Program-made: the position numbers and the translations under genes | Part shown: piece by piece, positions 20,074 through 49,811 of the stretch | Layout of the letters: the number at the start of each line of letters is the position of its first letter | Position numbering within the stretch: the first letter of the stretch is position 1 | Assembly (NCBI RefSeq): GCF_014191715.1 | Contig: NZ_JACHWY010000001.1 | Location: 868,001 to 932,000 of the forward strand | Origin: Litorivivens lipolytica | Lineage (GTDB): Bacteria; Pseudomonadota; Gammaproteobacteria; Pseudomonadales; Spongiibacteraceae | DNA length: 64,000 nucleotides | Reading direction: 5' to 3' | Notes under the pieces: generated by a model | Told to the model about the DNA's origin: nothing | Database searches by the model: none | The model's input: the letters and a program-made list of their open reading frames with translations, nothing else

Positions 20074-22221
20074 ATGCGACCGATCATTGGATTAGCCCTC
20101 ATAGCCTCCGTTTTACAGGCCTTCGCCGGCCCGGTATCGCCCGAACGCTTGCTCAACGCCGAAGCCGACAATGCAAATTGGCTCAGTCACGGTCGCAGCT
20201 ACCGAGAACAGCGCTACTCCCCGCTGGATCAGATCAATAGCGCTAACGCCGAACAGCTTGGGCTGGCCTGGTATTTTGAAACGGACACCCATCTAGGGCT
20301 TGAGACGACGCCACTGGTCATCGATGGCGTACTGTATTTTACCGGGGCCTGGAGCACTGCCTACGCGGTTGATGCCCGGACCGGTGCATTGCTTTGGAAA
20401 TACGACCCCGAAGTACCGAGAGAGAAAAGCATTACCGCCTGCTGTGGTGTAGTTAATCGCGGTCTGGCCGCCTGGGAAGACAAACTGTATCTGGGAACGG
20501 TTGACGGTCGCCTGATCGCCATCGATCAGGAAAGTGGAAAGCCAGTATGGAGCACCCGCACCACCGACCCGACAAAAGCCTATTCCATTACCGGCGCACC
20601 GCGCGTTGCCAAGGGCCTCGTCTTTATCGGTAACGGCGGCAGCGAATTCGGTACCCGCGGTTATGTCAGTGCCTACGACGCCAACACCGGCGAAATGCGC
20701 TGGCGCTGGCACACCATTCCCGGCAACCCGGCCGAGGGCTTTGAGAATGAGGCCATGGAGAAAGCCGCAGCAACCTGGAACGGCGAATGGTGGCAGTATG
20801 GCGGCGGCGGCACGGTGTGGGATGCCATTGTCTACGATCCGGAACTTGACCAACTTTACCTCGGTGTCGGGAACGGCGCCCCTCACAACCGACGCATCCG
20901 CAGCCCCGGTGGCGGCGACAACCTCTACCTCAGCTCCGTGGTTGCGCTTGACCCCGATACCGGCGACTACCTCTGGCACTATCAGGAAGTTCCCGCTGAC
21001 AACTGGGATTACACTGCCTCACAACAGATCACTCTGGCCGATATCACCTGGCAGGGAGAAGCGCGCAAAGTCATCGTGCACGCCCCCAAAGCGGGTTTCG
21101 TTTACCTGATCGACCGGCACGATGGCACACTGCTTTCCGCAGAGCCCTTCACCACGGTAACCTGGGCCAGCCACTACGATATGAGCACCGGTCGCCCGGT
21201 GGAGGTCGAGGGTCAGGACTACGACGGCGAACCAGCGATGGTTTATCCGTCTGCCATCGGCGGCCACAACTGGCAACCCATGGCCTACAACCCTGAATCC
21301 AAAATGCTGTACATCCCCGAGCTGGACATGGGCATGCTGTTCGATGAGATCAAGGCCCCGGACTACAAACACCTAAAGCGGCATTTCAACACTGGCTACA
21401 AACTCAGTCAGGATGCCCTGCCGCAACCGGTTACTCAGGGGATTCTGAAACATTTCCCCAAATCCCATCTGCTCGCCTGGGATGTGGAAAAAGCCGAGAT
21501 TGCCTGGAAGCTGCCCCACCCCTATATCCACAATGGCGGCGTCTTGGCTACCGGCGGCAATCTGGTCTTTCAGGGCACCTCCGACGGCCGCTTTCTGGCT
21601 GTGAGTGCAGACAAAGGGGAAATCCTCTGGTCCTTTGACGCCCAGAACAGCATTTTGCCGGGCCCTGTAACCTACACGGTCGATGGCGAGCAATATGTTG
21701 CCGTGGGCGTGGGTCGCGGCGGCGCCCTTACCATGAACACCGGCAAGAGCTACCCCACCGAAAACCCCAACAACCGCATCATGGCCTTCAAACTCCAAGG
21801 CTCGGCAACGCTGCCTCCAGCACCCGAGCCAGAACGCCCTCTACCGCCTCCGCGCACGCAGGCCAGTGAGGCTGAGATCGAGGAAGGTCGCAAGCTGTTT
21901 GATCGCTTCTGTGCGCGCTGCCACGGCGCAACGGCGGTGGGCGACGGCTCAATTCCCGATATGCGCTACCTTGCCCCCATCTGGCATGAAAACTTCGAGG
22001 CGGTGGTGTTAAACGGGCTGATGGAGCAGGCCGGCATGCCGCGCTTTGACGATGTGCTTAACGCCAAACAGGTGGCCAACATTCATGCCTACGTGATTGA
22101 ACGGGCGCACGAGGATCACGCCCTGCGCCAGCAGACTGGCTGGTGGGCGGAGCTGAAGGCCAAGGCTACGGATCTGACAACGCGGGTGATGGCCTGGTTT
22201 ATTCGTCTCACCACCAGTTGA
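20074..22221 (+). CDS. Quinohaemoprotein alcohol dehydrogenase (PQQ + cytochrome c)
   Basis: A 715-residue type II PQQ alcohol dehydrogenase. After a signal peptide ending near AFAGPV comes the PQQ propeller with vicinal cysteines Cys123-Cys124 (TACCGVVNRG), characteristic of PQQ alcohol dehydrogenases, and docking motifs such as TGALLWKYDP. The C-terminal cytochrome c domain has a CARCH haem site at Cys613-Cys616-His617 and a methionine ligand candidate in AGMPRFDD. It oxidises alcohols in the periplasm and passes electrons to the haem. A GTG at 20053 is an alternative start. Pqq biosynthesis genes are not in the window. Confidence 0.93.
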   Translation: MRPIIGLALIASVLQAFAGPVSPERLLNAEADNANWLSHGRSYREQRYSPLDQINSANAEQLGLAWYFETDTHLGLETTPLVIDGVLYFTGAWSTAYAVDARTGALLWKYDPEVPREKSITACCGVVNRGLAAWEDKLYLGTVDGRLIAIDQESGKPVWSTRTTDPTKAYSITGAPRVAKGLVFIGNGGSEFGTRGYVSAYDANTGEMRWRWHTIPGNPAEGFENEAMEKAAATWNGEWWQYGGGGTVWDAIVYDPELDQLYLGVGNGAPHNRRIRSPGGGDNLYLSSVVALDPDTGDYLWHYQEVPADNWDYTASQQITLADITWQGEARKVIVHAPKAGFVYLIDRHDGTLLSAEPFTTVTWASHYDMSTGRPVEVEGQDYDGEPAMVYPSAIGGHNWQPMAYNPESKMLYIPELDMGMLFDEIKAPDYKHLKRHFNTGYKLSQDALPQPVTQGILKHFPKSHLLAWDVEKAEIAWKLPHPYIHNGGVLATGGNLVFQGTSDGRFLAVSADKGEILWSFDAQNSILPGPVTYTVDGEQYVAVGVGRGGALTMNTGKSYPTENPNNRIMAFKLQGSATLPPAPEPERPLPPPRTQASEAEIEEGRKLFDRFCARCHGATAVGDGSIPDMRYLAPIWHENFEAVVLNGLMEQAGMPRFDDVLNAKQVANIHAYVIERAHEDHALRQQTGWWAELKAKATDLTTRVMAWFIRLTTS

Positions 22222-43234: not shown

Positions 43235-43411
43235 ATGCTGATACATTCATCCCTGATCCTGCTGTTTTCAGTGTTTTTCCTGTTCACGCCCTCGCTCGAA
43301 CAGTGGCTGCTCAACGACAGTATCGCTTGGTACCGACCTCACCTGATCTGGCTGGGCGTTGTGGTTTTTGTGTTTATCAGCCAGCAGGATCTCACTCAGG
43401 ATGAACGCTGA
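43235..43411 (+). CDS. Small membrane protein upstream of cbrA (CbrX-like)
   Basis: A 58-residue hydrophobic protein with two likely membrane helices (LILLFSVFFLF and HLIWLGVVVFVFI). It overlaps the cbrA start by 11 bases. In Pseudomonas a small overlapping membrane ORF, cbrX, occupies this position and is translationally coupled to cbrA, so this is probably its counterpart by position; sequence identity could not be checked. Confidence 0.7.
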   Translation: MLIHSSLILLFSVFFLFTPSLEQWLLNDSIAWYRPHLIWLGVVVFVFISQQDLTQDER

Positions 43412-46397
43412 TTTCATCACCCTCTTTCTGCTGGGTTCGGTCTATCTGATTATTCTGTTCGCCATTGCCTACGCGGCCGAACAGCGCGTGCTGGCCGATT
43501 GGCTAAACCGCCACCCCGCCACCTATGTGCTGTCGCTCGGCGTTTTTGTCAGCGCCTATGGTATCTACGGCGTGGTCGATCAGGCCCAGGACGCCGGCTA
43601 CAGTTACATGAATTACTACCTCGGCACCGCGACGGCTTTCATCGTCTACCCGCTCCTGATTGCCCCGCTGATGCGAATCTGTCAAAGCTATCGACTGGGC
43701 TCGCTGGCTGACTTGCTGACCTTCCGCTTTCGCAGCCAGGTCGCCGGCTCGGTCGTCACCCTGTTTATGCTAGTGGCCATGCTGCCGCTGATGACCCTGC
43801 AAATTCAGGCGGTTTCCGAATCCATGCAGGTCTTGAGTGGTCGCCCGGAAAACCTGGCAGACAGCCGACAACAGCGCGACCTGCTGGCCTTTCTATTCTG
43901 CGTCGTGATTATCGTCTTCGCGATCCTGTTTGGTTCGCGTCACCTCAACTCCCGCGAGAGTCACCGGGGGCTGGTTACTGCCATTGCCTTTGAATCCGTG
44001 GTCAAGCTGGTCGCACTGAGCCTTACCGGCATTTTCAGCGTCATCTATGTCTTCGGCAGCTTTGAAAATATGCAGAGCTGGCTAGCCGGGCAGGAAGATT
44101 TGATCAGCGCACTTAATCAACCAGCGGGTGGCGATACCACCCGGATGGCGCTGGTTATGTTTTTTGCCAGCGCAGTGTGTCTGCCCCACGTATTCCACCT
44201 GGTGTTTGCCGAAAACCCCAATGCCAGGAATCTGCGAATTGCCAGCTGGGCAGTGCCGCTCTATTTACTGCTGATCAGCCTGCCAGTCTTTCCGATACTC
44301 TGGGCGGGCGAAGCTCAGGGCACCGGAGCACCGGCGCAGTATTATTCTCTGATTATCGGTAAGGAAAGCGGCCACAACTGGCTTTCCTACGTCACGTTTA
44401 TTGGCGGGCTATCGGCGGCCAGCGGCGTCATCATTGTCGCCACCCTCGCACTGGCCAACATGTCGCTGAACCACCTGATCCTCCCACTGTATCAACCGGA
44501 CAACAAAGTCGATATCTACCACTGGCTGCTGCGAACCCGCCAGCTGCTCATCGCCGTCATTATCGCCGCCGGCTTCCTGTTTTACTTTGCCACCCCCGAT
44601 AGCAACACCCTCAGCCAGCTCGCCATTGCCGCGGTGTCCGGCTGCGTGCAGTTTTTCCCCGGCGCCCTCGCCATCCTTTACTGGCCTCACGCCAATAGCT
44701 ACGGCTTTATCAGCGGTCTGGCTGCCGGCTTTGCGGTCTGGGCGCTCGGGTCTTTGGCCACACTGGTAGATCTGGTGGACTCCAGCCTACTACTGTCATT
44801 TTATGTGGGCAGCCTGCCGGAAGAATCGAACTGGGTGGCGGTAGTCGCACTGTCGCTGACCGCAAACGCGCTGGTATTTATCGCCGTTTCCCTGCTGACC
44901 AATACCCGCGACGAAGAACGCATCGCCGCCGAAGTGTGCACGCTGGACGACCTGAATCGCCCAGTCCGCCAGATTCTGGATTTACGCGATGCCGCCGAAA
45001 TGCAGCAAAGACTTGCCTACGCGCTGGGTGACAATGTGGCCCACCGGGAAGTCGCCCGAGCGCTGGAAGAACTGCAACTCAATCCCGACGAACGCCGACC
45101 CTACGCCCTGCGTCGGCTACGTGACCGGATTGAAATCAATCTGTCAGCCCTGATGGGCCCGGGCGTGGCAAAATCACTGGTGGATCAGCAACTGCCCTAC
45201 GCTTCTGACCCCAGCGCCAGCAGCGAAGACATCACCTTTATCGAAAGCCGGCTGGAACTTTATAACGCCCACCTTACAGGGCTAGCCGCTGACCTGAACA
45301 ACCTGCGCCGCTATCACCGCCAGACACTGGATGAACTGCCTATTGGTCTCTGCTCGCTGGGCAGCGACGGTGAAATACTGATGTGGAACCGGGCCATGAG
45401 CGACATTTCCGGTATCGCCAGTGACGATATCACCGGCTCACGCCTGACGGATCTCGCCGACGACTGGCAAACGCTGCTGCAAGAGTTTCAGGCGAGCAGC
45501 GATTTGCACTGGCGCAAGCACACTCTGGAAACAGACCAGCACGCCCGCATACTCAATCTGCACAAAGCCGCGGTAGACCCGCTGGCCCGCAGTGAGCAGG
45601 TGATTATTGTCGAAGATGTGACCGACACCCACCTGATGGAAAACAAACTCACCCATCAGGAGCGACTCGCCTCCATAGGTCGCCTGGCCGCCGGGGTCGC
45701 GCACGAAATCGGCAACCCGGTCACCGGCATTGCCTGTCTCGCACAGAATCTGCTTTATGATTCCGAGGAGCCCGAGGTACTGGAAAGTGCCGACCAGATC
45801 ATCAAGCAGACCCAGCGCATCACCGGCATCGTGCAGAGTTTGGTGAACTTCGCTCATCAGGGCCGCGACAACCAGAGCACACAGATAGAAGCGGTGGATA
45901 TCCGGCACTGCATCAACGAGGCCATTCAGCTGCTGTCGCTGGACCGGGAAGCCACACAGGTTGAATTCAGCAACCGTTGTCCAAACGGCGCGCTGGCCGC
46001 AGCCGAAACCCAGCGCCTGATTCAGGTTCTGATCAACCTGCTGGCCAATGCCCGCGATGCCAGTGACCCGGGCGGTGTGATTGTGGTCGATGCGGAGCCC
46101 GTAACACCCACGCCCGAACAAGCGGCTGATACAATTGCGCCTTCCGCTATCAAGCTGTCGGTCTGCGACAACGGCAGCGGCATCCCCGCCCACGCTCTGG
46201 AAAAAATCTTCGAGCCTTTCTTTACTACCAAAGAGCCGGGAAAAGGTACCGGGCTGGGCCTGGCGCTGGTCTACAACATTATTGAAGATCTGAACGGCGA
46301 CATCAGCATCGAAAGCCCCGTTGCCGATACCGGCCGCGGTACCTGTGTGCATATTACCCTCCCCGCCTATCAAACCGGCGGCGCATCTCCTGTCTAA
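43401..46397 (+). CDS. cbrA: Sensor kinase CbrA with SLC5-type transporter domain
   Basis: A 998-residue hybrid of sodium:solute symporter and histidine kinase. About thirteen membrane helices (residues 1-500) form the SLC5-like domain. They are followed by a linker, a PAS domain (about 640-730, [20 protein letters not shown]), a HisKA domain with phospho-acceptor His768 ([20 protein letters not shown]) and an HATPase domain ([42 protein letters not shown]). CbrA governs carbon/nitrogen balance and catabolite repression relief with CbrB. ATG at 43401 is chosen over the upstream in-frame extension. Confidence 0.95.
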
Positions 46398-46537: not shown

Positions 46538-47971
46538 ATGAGTGACATCCTGATAGTCGAAGACGAAGACGTAATCCGCAAAGCCCTGCGACGCTTGCTG
46601 GAACGCAACGATTACGCCGTACAGGAAGCCTCCTCAGTTGCCGAGGCCCAGCAGAATTTCACGCTCGATGATTTCGACCTGATCATCTCCGACCTGCGCC
46701 TGCCCGGCGCCCCCGGCACCGAATTGATCCAGCTCACCGAATCGCCGGTACTGATCATGACCAGCTACGCCAGCCTGCGCTCGGCGGTGGATTCGATGAA
46801 ACAGGGTGCGGTGGATTACGTGGCCAAACCCTTTGACCACGATGAAATGCTGGAAGCGGTTAAGCGCAATATCGAAGCTCACTCCGACGCCGCAGAAGCC
46901 AATGGCAGCCGCACCCGTCGCAAAGGGCTTCGCGGTCAACCCCAGCTGGGCGAGATGATCGGTAGCTGTAAAACCATGGCTACCCTGTACGAGCGCATTA
47001 AAAAGGTGGGGCCCACCGAAGCCACCGTGTTAATTCACGGCGAGACCGGCACCGGCAAGGAGCTGGTTGCCAAGGCTATTCACAACCGCAGCAGCCGTGC
47101 CGACAAGCCCATTATCTCGGTGAACTGTGCGGCCATTCCGGAAACCCTGATTGAGTCGGAGCTGTTCGGTTACGAGAAAGGAGCCTTTACCGGCGCCAAC
47201 GCGAGCCGTATCGGCCTGATCGAAGCTGCTGATGGCGGCACACTCTTCCTCGACGAAATCGGCGAACTGCCCATGGAAGCTCAGGCCCGCCTGCTGCGCT
47301 TTATCCAGGAAAACGAAATCCGTCGCATTGGTTCGGTCAATGCCCGCACCGTCGACGTTCGCCTGATCTGCGCCACCCACCGCGACCTGAAGTCCATGGC
47401 CCGCGACCATGAGTTTCGGGAAGACCTTTATTACCGGATCGGCGTTGTCAGGCTGGAGCTGCCGCCCCTCCGGGAGCGCGGCAAGGATATCCTCGAAATT
47501 GCCGAAGCGATATTGAAGCGCTGCTGCGAACGCCTCGACAAGGGCGACATGCACTTTTCGCCCAAGGCCATTCAGGCCATCACCACCTATATCTGGCCGG
47601 GCAATATTCGCGAGTTGGAAAACGCAGTGGAACGTGCGGTGATCCTCAGCGACGGAGAGGAAATCGACAACGATCTACTCGATATTGATCTGGAACTGGT
47701 CGATGTCAGCCAGATGCGCAGCAGCAAACCCAAACCTGCCTCTGGCAGCAAACCCCGCCGCGAGGCAGAGCCCAGCAAACCCAAAAGCAGCAATCTGGAC
47801 CCCAGCGAAGACCTGTCACTGGAAGACTACTTCCAGCGCTTTGTTCTGGAGCACCAGGATTCCATGAGCGAGACCGAGCTGGCCCAGAAACTGGGGGTTA
47901 GCCGCAAGTGTTTGTGGGAACGCCGGCAACGCTTGGGCATTCCGCGAAAGAAAAGTTCTAAATCCGCATAA
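46538..47971 (+). CDS. cbrB: Sigma-54-dependent response regulator CbrB
   Basis: NtrC-family activator, 477 residues. The receiver domain has phospho-acceptor Asp52 (LIISDLRLP). The AAA+ domain has Walker A GETGTGKE, the sigma-54 contact loop GAFTGA (within FGYEKGAFTGANAS) and Walker B GGTLFLDEIGELP. The C-terminal Fis-like helix-turn-helix is ETELAQKLGVSRKCLWERRQRLG. Between them lies a proline/serine/lysine-rich linker (about residues 385-425). It is 140 bases after cbrA and is expected to activate the sigma-54 promoter downstream of its own gene. Confidence 0.96.
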   Translation: MSDILIVEDEDVIRKALRRLLERNDYAVQEASSVAEAQQNFTLDDFDLIISDLRLPGAPGTELIQLTESPVLIMTSYASLRSAVDSMKQGAVDYVAKPFDHDEMLEAVKRNIEAHSDAAEANGSRTRRKGLRGQPQLGEMIGSCKTMATLYERIKKVGPTEATVLIHGETGTGKELVAKAIHNRSSRADKPIISVNCAAIPETLIESELFGYEKGAFTGANASRIGLIEAADGGTLFLDEIGELPMEAQARLLRFIQENEIRRIGSVNARTVDVRLICATHRDLKSMARDHEFREDLYYRIGVVRLELPPLRERGKDILEIAEAILKRCCERLDKGDMHFSPKAIQAITTYIWPGNIRELENAVERAVILSDGEEIDNDLLDIDLELVDVSQMRSSKPKPASGSKPRREAEPSKPKSSNLDPSEDLSLEDYFQRFVLEHQDSMSETELAQKLGVSRKCLWERRQRLGIPRKKSSKSA

Positions 47972-48046: not shown

Positions 48047-48072
48047 CGTTACCCAAAATGGTAAAAGTAACA
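48047..48072 (+). promoter_or_regulatory. Predicted CbrB upstream activating sequence
   Basis: CGTTAC (48047-48052) and GTAACA (48067-48072) form an inverted repeat with exactly 14 bases between. This is the TGTTAC-N14-GTAACA pattern described for CbrB at Pseudomonas crcZ, with one mismatch. A further GTAACA half-site lies 22 bases downstream at 48089-48094. The site is centred about 137 bases upstream of the predicted transcript start, a normal enhancer distance. Confidence 0.65.
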
Positions 48073-48169
48073 GCCATCGGGCAGAACAGTAACAATACGC
48101 ACTAATACTTAGTGAAAGCTAGTACCGAATAATTAGATTAAACAATTGTTTTTAAAGGATATTTAAAAG

Positions 48170-48186
48170 TTGGCACAGTAGGTGCT
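48170..48186 (+). promoter_or_regulatory. Sigma-54 (-24/-12) promoter downstream of cbrB
   Basis: TTGGCAC (48170-48176), five bases, then GTGCT (48182-48186). The invariant GG and GC doublets are 10 bases apart as required for RpoN promoters. It predicts a transcript start near 48197. An AT-rich tract including the palindrome AAACAATTGTTT (48140-48151) lies between promoter and activator site and could bind IHF. Confidence 0.8.
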
Positions 48187-48196
48187 ATAAGTACTC

Positions 48197-48305
48197 GCAA
48201 ATAACAATAATACTGAAAAAAAATAATAATAAGAGCAGAAAAACTAATAAAAACAATTGCATAGAGACCTGGATGGGGAAGACGCTGTTTTCCCCTTCTT
48301 CATTT
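48197..48305 (+). ncRNA. CrcZ-like Hfq/Crc decoy small RNA (predicted)
   Basis: The 478-base cbrB-pcnB gap has no credible ORF. The predicted transcript opens with about 60 A-rich bases holding repeated AAnAAnAA motifs: AACAATAA (48203-48210), two overlapping AATAATAA (48222-48232), AATAAAAA (48246-48253) and AAAAACAA (48249-48256). It closes with a hairpin GGGGAA / TTCCCC (48275-48295) followed by a pyrimidine-rich stretch. In Pseudomonas, CrcZ is encoded at this place, driven by CbrB and RpoN, and sequesters Hfq to relieve catabolite repression. Here the RNA would be about 100 nt rather than about 400. Exact ends are uncertain. Confidence 0.68.
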
Positions 48306-48449: not shown

Positions 48450-49811
48450 GTGGCTAATCTCTGGACAAAAATTACTTCTGCCGTGACACGCAAACCCAGC
48501 GCGGAAAAACTTCCCCGGGTGCTCAGCCGTGACGAACACGTGGTTTCCCGCAAGCAGATCAGCGACAACGCGCTTAAAGTGATGCACCGCCTGCGCAGCG
48601 GTGGCTTTGACGCATTTCTCGTAGGCGGCGGCGTTCGCGACCTGATGCTGGGCAAGCAGCCCAAGGACTTTGACATTGCCACTGATGCGACACCGGAAGA
48701 AGTTCGCCAGCTGTTTCGCAACAGCCGCATCATCGGCCGCCGTTTCAAGATCGTTCACGTACGCTTTGGGCGCGAAATTATCGAAGTCACTACCTATCGC
48801 GGCAGCCACGAAGACGGCAATGCCAAATCCGCGGTTGCGGGCGAAAGTGGCATGCTGCTGCGCGACAACGTTTACGGCACTCTCGAAGAAGACGCCATAC
48901 GCCGGGACTTCACCGTTAACGCGCTCTACTATTGCAGCGATAAGTTCACCGTACACGATTATGTAGGCGGCCTGAGCGATCTGGAAAAACGCGAGGTACG
49001 CATTATCGGCGATGCCTCCAGCCGCTATCAGGAAGACCCGGTGCGCATGCTGCGCGCGGTTCGCTTTGCGGCAAAGCTCGACTTTACACTCGAGAAACGC
49101 ACCGCTGCCCCATTGCAGCAGCTGGCGCCGCTGTTGGAACAAATACCGGCCGCGCGCCTGTTCGACGAAGTGCTGAAACTCTTTATGGAAGGCCAGGCAC
49201 TGCGCGTCTACGCCCTGCTCAAGCACTACAACTTGTTCCGCCCCCTGTTCCCCGCGACCCAGGCCGTGCTCGACAGCGGCGACAGCAGTGCGTCCGCCCT
49301 GATTGAGCAAGGTCTGATCAATACCGATACCCGCATTGGCCAGAACAAACCCGTCACGCCCGCCTTTATCTTTGCCATTATGCTGTGGCCGGTGGTACGT
49401 CGGGAAATGGCGCAGCTTCAGGCAGAAGGCATGCCTGAAATCCCTGCTCTGCATCAGGCGGCCCAGAACGTCGTGTCTGCCCAGCAGGCGCACACCTCGA
49501 TTCCCAAGCGCTTCTCCATGCCCATGCGCGACATCTGGGAACTGCAACTGAGATTGCCCCGCCGCACCGGGCGCCGAGCACAGGAACTGCTGGAACACCG
49601 CTATTTCCGTGCCGGCTATGATTTCCTGTTGCTGCGCGAGCAGTCGGGTGAAATCCCGGAAGAGTTGGGCCCCTGGTGGACAGCTTTTCAGGAAGCCGAC
49701 GAAAGCGCCCGCGACGGTATGCAGAAAAAGGTGGCGGGCGATCGCTCATCGCGCGGTAACGGCCGCCGCCGTCGCAAGCCGCGTCACCGGAAGTCGCCGC
49801 GACCGTCCTGA
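48450..49811 (+). CDS. pcnB: Poly(A) polymerase I
   Basis: Adds poly(A) tails to RNA 3' ends, promoting decay. The 453-residue protein has SRKQISDNALKVMHRLRSGGFDAFLVGGGVRDLMLG and PKDFDIATDATPEEV, the nucleotidyltransferase GG and DxD-type metal motifs, then RRFKIVHVRFG and RRDFTVNALYY. The C-terminus is strongly basic (RRRRKPRHRKSPR), as usual for PcnB. The start is GTG; the match to E. coli PcnB from the SRK-ISENALKVM region supports it. Next gene starts within its stop codon. Confidence 0.95.
   Translation: MANLWTKITSAVTRKPSAEKLPRVLSRDEHVVSRKQISDNALKVMHRLRSGGFDAFLVGGGVRDLMLGKQPKDFDIATDATPEEVRQLFRNSRIIGRRFKIVHVRFGREIIEVTTYRGSHEDGNAKSAVAGESGMLLRDNVYGTLEEDAIRRDFTVNALYYCSDKFTVHDYVGGLSDLEKREVRIIGDASSRYQEDPVRMLRAVRFAAKLDFTLEKRTAAPLQQLAPLLEQIPAARLFDEVLKLFMEGQALRVYALLKHYNLFRPLFPATQAVLDSGDSSASALIEQGLINTDTRIGQNKPVTPAFIFAIMLWPVVRREMAQLQAEGMPEIPALHQAAQNVVSAQQAHTSIPKRFSMPMRDIWELQLRLPRRTGRRAQELLEHRYFRAGYDFLLLREQSGEIPEELGPWWTAFQEADESARDGMQKKVAGDRSSRGNGRRRRKPRHRKSPRPS

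Follow-up and report, generated by a model that had tools for sequence, protein, structure and literature searches.

Gene Organization of the cbrB-pcnB Locus

As listed in Table 1, the genes for a sensor kinase, an NtrC-type response regulator, and a poly(A) polymerase lie in a row in the window (the whole stretch of Litorivivens lipolytica DNA analyzed, 64,000 nucleotides). The order cbrA-cbrB-gap-pcnB is common to the window and the Pseudomonas loci, and both CbrA and CbrB align to their counterparts in these loci over most of their lengths. The CbrA alignments begin at query residues 6-34, and the true start of cbrA is probably an ATG further inside the listed ORF. Pfam detected the kinase domains of CbrA and the receiver and sigma-54 interaction domains of CbrB, and Pfam gave no transporter domain for CbrA at 1e-3. 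The gap from the end of cbrB (47971) to the listed start of pcnB (48450) is 478 bases long and holds a crcZ-like unit on the plus strand. Thus, the unit has the position that marks the CrcZ-type decoy RNAs, as the initial annotation had claimed.

Table 1. Features of the crcZ-like locus and its flanking genes in the window.
Feature	Position	Strand	Basis or remark
cbrA, sensor kinase	43359..46397	+	Listed ORF; 841-886 bits against the gene preceding cbrB in Pseudomonas-group loci
cbrB, NtrC-type response regulator	46538..47971	+	62-65% identity to CbrB of Pseudomonas-group loci
CbrB subsite F1, GTTAC	48048..48052	+	Consensus match; C instead of the first consensus T
CbrB subsite R1, GTAACA	48067..48072	+	Consensus match
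CbrB subsite R2, GTAACA	48089..48094	+	Consensus match
-24/-12 sigma-54 promoter, TGGCACAGTAGGTGCT	48171..48186	+	Kept in 21/21 family genomes
Predicted short CrcZ-like RNA	48197..48305	+	About 100-109 nt; start by promoter spacing, end by hairpin/tail
A-rich block 1, four ARN triplets	48200..48211	+	Sequence, alignment
A-rich block 2, nine ARN triplets	48216..48242	+	Sequence, alignment
A-rich block 3, four ARN triplets	48246..48257	+	Sequence, alignment
Conserved 3′ element, GACCTGGATGGGG	48266..48278	+	At the crcZ site of 27/57 relatives
Terminator-like hairpin	48275..48295	+	T-rich, C-interrupted tail to 48305
pcnB, poly(A) polymerase	48450..49811	+	NCBIfam TIGR01942, 550 bits against a cut-off of 305.65

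CbrB Site and Sigma-54 Promoter

The CbrB site has been dissected in P. putida (PMC6296734), and its published consensus is TGTTAC-N12-14-GTAACA-N15-19-GTAACA (PMC8871633). In the window, the three subsites are arranged as F1-N14-R1-N16-R2 upstream of the promoter and fit this consensus except for one mismatch in F1. The GTTAC-N14-GTAAC palindrome had already been read as a CbrB site; the third subsite, R2, was overlooked then and makes the reading stronger. The pattern GTTAC-N11-15-GTAAC-N15-21-GTAAC has a single occurrence in the 3,489,636-base genome, and it lies at the cbrB-pcnB gap. The correctly spaced sigma-54 promoter was also found as described, and its spacing predicts G48197 as the transcription start, in agreement with the initial annotation. 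The corresponding sigma factor, RpoN, is encoded in the genome.

Predicted RNA and Its Relation to CrcZ

The A-rich transcript of about 100 nt had been credited with at least four AAnAAnAA motifs. In the sequence of the predicted non-coding RNA, there are eight overlapping matches, which are spread over three runs of ARN triplets. Dinucleotide shuffles of the A-rich part gave 2.69 ± 1.75 matches; since 12 of the 1000 shuffles reached eight, the count is partly explained by A-richness alone. Folding of the window RNA alone gave a single weak helix besides the terminal hairpin (-15.9 kcal/mol, z -1.85).

P. aeruginosa CrcZ, a 407-nt RNA with six A-rich stretches, titrates Hfq, and the 151 nt at its 5′ end, which hold three such stretches, produced three shifted Hfq bands (PMC4063720). 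The window RNA has three stretches and about a quarter of the full CrcZ length. It resembles the 5′ part (151 nt) of P. aeruginosa CrcZ joined to a terminator. It shares with the CrcZ of Pseudomonas and Azotobacter (RF01675) the cbrB-pcnB position, the three-part CbrB site, the sigma-54 promoter, a first AAN block at most about 5 nt from the predicted start, the A-rich stretches, and a GGGG..CCCC hairpin near the end. However, its length of about 100 nt and its three blocks differ from the roughly 400 nt and about six A-rich stretches of RF01675. In a low-threshold scan, it scored 21.3 bits (E 0.00094) against RF01675, whose gathering threshold is 95 bits, and no Rfam family matched the window at the gathering score. 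Thus, the window RNA is CrcZ-like but is not a member by the Rfam definition. The same scan gave a CRISPR-DR11 match on the minus strand (E 0.69), which was set aside as chance.

The Rfam CrcZ model recognized four Pseudomonas-group loci at 272-349 bits, with hits of 392-402 nt, and detected none of eight loci outside the group at the gathering score. The model at this score therefore overlooks these relatives. Another Rfam family, sRNA P36, was matched directly 3′ of cbrB in two loci (L079, 6483-6543; L083, 6411-6473). In L079, the match overlaps the three-part CbrB site upstream of the crcZ promoter, and P36 may partly represent promoter DNA instead of RNA.

Conservation in Spongiibacteraceae

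The family was represented by 21 Spongiibacteraceae genomes, the L. lipolytica genome included. Among them are Spongiibacter thalassae and Neomelitea salexigens, both of which belong to Spongiibacter (Spongiibacteraceae, Cellvibrionales) in the NCBI taxonomy. All 21 genomes conserve the locus layout and have the three-part site without a mismatch to GTTAC/GTAAC/GTAAC. F1 always starts 122-123 nt 5′ of the sigma-54 box, which is followed by 6-10 AAnAAnAA motifs. Between F1 and R1, three genomes have N14; the remaining 18 have N15, which exceeds the published range by one. In the aligned RNAs, the AA of the AAN triplets is nearly fixed, while the N is variable. The motif counts lie above those of dinucleotide shuffles, being equaled by 0 to 37 of 1000 shuffles. 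In every genome, the closing hairpin, which the initial annotation had also described, has its end 98-103 nt past the predicted start. These DNA elements and their conservation are established at the level of the sequence.

With about a quarter of the P. aeruginosa CrcZ length and a weak Rfam score, the RNA could be taken for a functionless, decayed remnant of a long CrcZ behind a live promoter. This is extremely unlikely, because decay would not preserve the length, the blocks, the 3′ element, and the hairpin, as is seen throughout the 21 family genomes and in related genera.

Distribution in Pseudomonadales

Is the unit common outside the family? From 57 relatives in the order, one cbrB locus each was obtained for 54, and 53 were assessed. 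Three genomes without a clear cbrB orthologue (G038, G043, and G055; best E 4.1e-87, 2.8e-85, and 3.3e-84) and one whose contig ends at cbrB (G046) were left out. A strict test, which required a strict sigma-54 box and at least three AAnAAnAA motifs within the next 200 nt, was passed by 42 of the 53 genomes and by none of 5300 dinucleotide shuffles. An additional F-R pair at the right distance, with one mismatch allowed, was present in 34/53 genomes, and all three subsites with at most one mismatch in 30/53; the shuffles gave 0/5300 at both levels. Outside the family, the three levels were reached by 21, 13, and 9 of 32 genomes. The proposal of a CrcZ-type RNA thus withstands the comparison with relatives.

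The strict test was failed by 11 of the 53 genomes (G021, G024, G026, G027, G028, G029, G033, G037, G045, G050, and G054). G021 offers only 365 nt before the contig end, and parts of the unit are present in G028, G033, and G050. Among the named loci, those of Dasania, Halioglobus, Pseudohaliea, Gilvimarinus, Marinobacter, and Pseudomonas have the promoter and the A-motifs. The Alcanivorax locus (L093) has the A-motifs but no sigma-54 box by the pattern used.

The three-part CbrB-site pattern was found in 82/293 genomes of the order. In a class-wide sample, it was found in 19/274 genomes; four of the sampled genomes belong to the order, two of which match, and the 17/270 matches outside the order were read as chance. 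A reversed-pattern control of this survey was set aside, as the reversed pattern has a different base make-up and its counts were not small. CrcY and CrcX are CbrB-controlled decoy RNAs that represent extra copies (PMC6296734). The window RNA is predicted to be of the same CbrB-controlled kind, but the Litorivivens genome has only one three-part CbrB site. Two three-part sites were found in nine of ten sampled genomes of the group f47, the tenth genome being 64% complete.

Tandem doubling of the unit was seen in Dasania (L068) and in another locus (L058, genome G048); the latter has two complete units in one gap. It should be considered whether the transcript from the sigma-54 promoter serves mainly as a 5′ leader of pcnB under CbrB control, with the hairpin as attenuator and with an Hfq site in the A-rich stretch that acts on pcnB. 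The RNA and pcnB share a strand, with pcnB 145 nt downstream, and the C-interrupted T-tract after the hairpin makes read-through possible. However, each of the tandem units has its own terminal hairpin, the hairpin is kept throughout the family, and three loci (L035, L048, and L086) have the unit but no pcnB match in the stretch examined. A main role as a pcnB leader is therefore very unlikely.

Short and Long Forms

The predicted length is about 75-140 nt in the clade of the window and 257-465 nt in the loci labeled long, which include Pseudomonas, Marinobacter, and Gilvimarinus. The labels were set by hand (23 short and 16 long, with 11 of the 50 tree rows unlabeled), and two loci, L076 and L083, were labeled long by the A-motif span and Rfam hits. 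In a quick tree of the 50 CbrB sequences, the clade that includes the window has 21 rows (SH-aLRT 93), of which 20 are labeled short and one is unlabeled. The labels need at least four changes on this quick tree, which has long branches. Thus, the "minimal" form of the initial annotation holds as to the length of about 100 nt, but it is typical of a clade and not of this genome alone, and it is CrcZ-like with a score far below the Rfam threshold. The units of Halioglobus, Pseudohaliea, and Dasania have the same place, promoter type, and AAN blocks and are short like that of the window, with the 3′ element in common. Those of Marinobacter and Gilvimarinus agree in place, promoter type, and AAN blocks but are long (about 366-399 nt).

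Conserved 3′ Element

The 3′ element reads GACCTGG(A/G)TGGGG or GGCCTGGATGGGG and is followed by the hairpin. At the crcZ site, it was found in all 21 family genomes and in G023, G030, G032, G048 (twice), G049, and G050; it is also present in Dasania, Halioglobus, Pseudohaliea, and the locus L071. All 24 modules compared fold to a stem of at least seven pairs, and the inner pairs differ in type (A-U, G-U, and G-C). Since the stems stay paired despite the varied pair types, a transcribed RNA is supported. Copies of the element away from the crcZ site were followed by a hairpin in none of the ten examined. In Halioglobus (L069) and L071, a second AAN block with the 3′ element and hairpin lies about 140-190 nt past the first 3′ element. 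No sigma-54 box was matched by the pattern at this second block, which may belong to a second RNA or to a longer transcript.

Its recurrence at the crcZ site of 27/57 relatives, with the ACCUGG part outside the stem, would suit an Hfq-dependent sRNA that acts mainly by base pairing, whose working part is GACCUGGRUGGGG and whose A-blocks merely load Hfq. However, the element GACCTGGRTGGGG with its hairpin was not found in the inspected loci of Pseudomonas, where CrcZ is a decoy, nor in those of Marinobacter, Gilvimarinus, and Marinagarivorans. Among the short forms, L031 and L066 also lack it (L043 and L050 were left out of this check). Moreover, three AAN blocks exceed the need for loading, and the element is in part the GGGG arm of the hairpin. 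Base pairing as the main function is accordingly very unlikely. The element is one of the features in which the window RNA differs from the Pseudomonas CrcZ loci inspected.

Protein Partners

The decoy reading implies hfq and crc in the genome. Hfq is encoded (81 amino acids); within the first 71 residues, it departs from P. aeruginosa Hfq at three positions, and Y25, by which its distal face was judged, is retained. For Crc, a candidate of 260 amino acids (L149/L154) was found. Among PDB entries, P. aeruginosa Crc matches it best (230.9 bits), with 107/257 residues identical. PDB chains labeled as nucleases score up to 218.9 bits (2myi, a Pseudomonas Crc) and 204.7 bits, and with 190 bits the candidate is also above the cut-off (99) of the NCBIfam exodeoxyribonuclease III model. 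The score alone is therefore not decisive, because nuclease-labeled chains are near and the ExoIII model is passed too.

At the nuclease site, Q-E is altered to Q-N and GDxN to GNWN in the candidate. Its gene is divergent from pyrE, an arrangement shared by the homologous genes of Spongiibacter thalassae (G019) and of G040, a genome whose CbrB groups with Stutzerimonas. The altered nuclease site and the pyrE neighbor favor Crc, and the protein is taken to be a probable Crc. As for the RNA-contact and dimer residues named for P. aeruginosa Crc (PMC6422490), the candidate keeps K135, K139, R140, R141, E142, and R196 and is changed at R138, K155, M156, W161, R162, E193, and R230, with R229 replaced by K. 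Thus, the search for crc yielded a Crc-like protein whose best PDB match is Crc, although the ExoIII model fits it as well. A separate ExoIII is encoded elsewhere in the genome. Another protein, L147, was the first candidate and was rejected; its best PDB matches are nucleases (303 bits), and Crc scores 104.5. Besides L147 and L149/L154, a third protein, L148, was among the matches. Three matches to the Crc candidate each were found in G019, G004, and G006, and in many other genomes of the family there is a second one, with 41-45% identity.

Proposed Function

In Pseudomonas, CrcZ sequesters the Hfq/Crc repressor once preferred carbon sources are exhausted. It is very likely that the window contains a crcZ locus in a short, clade-typical form, whose RNA of about 100 nt would act as an Hfq/Crc decoy. 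The CrcZ-type reading of the initial annotation is supported by the place, the CbrB site, the promoter, the AAN blocks, and the terminator, and also by the genes for a Crc-like protein, Hfq, RpoN, CbrA, and CbrB. By analogy with Pseudomonas, when preferred carbon is low, CbrA would activate CbrB, which would bind F1-R1-R2 and activate transcription by RpoN polymerase at the -24/-12 promoter. This would yield a terminated non-coding RNA, the 5′ two-thirds of which would be single-stranded AAN repeats in three blocks. Each A-block might take an Hfq hexamer by its distal face, together with Crc, and the RNA might thereby draw Hfq/Crc off catabolic mRNAs, so that repression would end. Up to three Hfq hexamers per RNA would be expected; the nine ARN triplets of block 2 would suffice for all six sites of a hexamer, and the four triplets each of blocks 1 and 3 for only part of them. 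A sponge or beads-on-a-string model has been proposed for Hfq/Crc (PMC6422490).

The short RNA might further be regarded as an RNA family in its own right, as yet unnamed and belonging to a marine clade (Spongiibacteraceae, Halioglobus, Pseudohaliea, Dasania, and their kin). Such an RNA would combine a compact three-site Hfq/Crc sponge with a 3′ module (GACCUGGRUGGGG and the hairpin) that has a second job, for instance mRNA pairing or the anchoring of Hfq or a nuclease. Its capacity would be raised by tandem repeats and not by lengthening as in Pseudomonas. This extension of the decoy reading is tentative and, on balance, rather doubtful.

A 2018 paper (PMC6296734) and a 2022 review (PMC8871633) describe CbrAB as exclusive or unique to Pseudomonads or Pseudomonadaceae. 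The cbrAB genes with a CbrB/RpoN-type sRNA unit were found here outside Pseudomonadaceae, in Spongiibacter, Dasania, Halioglobus, Pseudohaliea, Gilvimarinus, and Marinobacter. In open-licence full texts, no description of a short CrcZ form was found, and no paper on CrcZ with Marinobacter or Cellvibrio; subscription papers mostly lie outside that scope, so an earlier description is possible. For CrcZ with several marine taxa, there was none among the matches listed from the same texts. CrcZ does occur together with Halomonas in these texts, and in one paper that names CbrAB and Gammaproteobacteria, CbrAB figures only in planned work and in the reference list. Judged by sequence, the mechanism is a known one, and what appears new is its form and range, namely, a short, clade-typical CrcZ-like decoy RNA outside the Pseudomonas family. 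If confirmed, carbon-use control by decoy RNA would be more widespread than stated, and studies of how Hfq and Crc assemble, in stoichiometry and structure, would gain a minimal substrate in a natural three-block RNA of about 100 nt.

Candidate Regulon

The published criterion for a CA motif is its presence from -50 to +50 at the gene start (PMC3480352). It was applied to 407 genes in 464 kb (20 stretches and the window, about 13% of the genome), the starts being chosen by a simple rule. AAnAAnAA was found at 19/407 genes, compared with 13.3 ± 3.0 in shuffles, the highest of 60 shuffles being 22, which is no clear enrichment. In an interval chosen post hoc, after the positions had been seen, from -40 to -12, there were 12 genes, compared with 5.38 ± 2.05, and none of 200 shuffles was as high. 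This enrichment is only a hint of a working regulon. A Pfam scan covered 18 of the 19 genes. It showed among the 12 two TonB receptors, an AMP-binding enzyme, a PQQ dehydrogenase, and a glucose/sorbosone dehydrogenase, as well as FlgH, a gyrase-B-like protein, PgpA, a secretion ATPase, and others. In a gene for a PQQ-dependent dehydrogenase, which lies in the window at 20074-22221 on the plus strand, AAnAAnAA starts 16 nt 5′ of the chosen start codon. This placement makes the gene a candidate target of Hfq/Crc.
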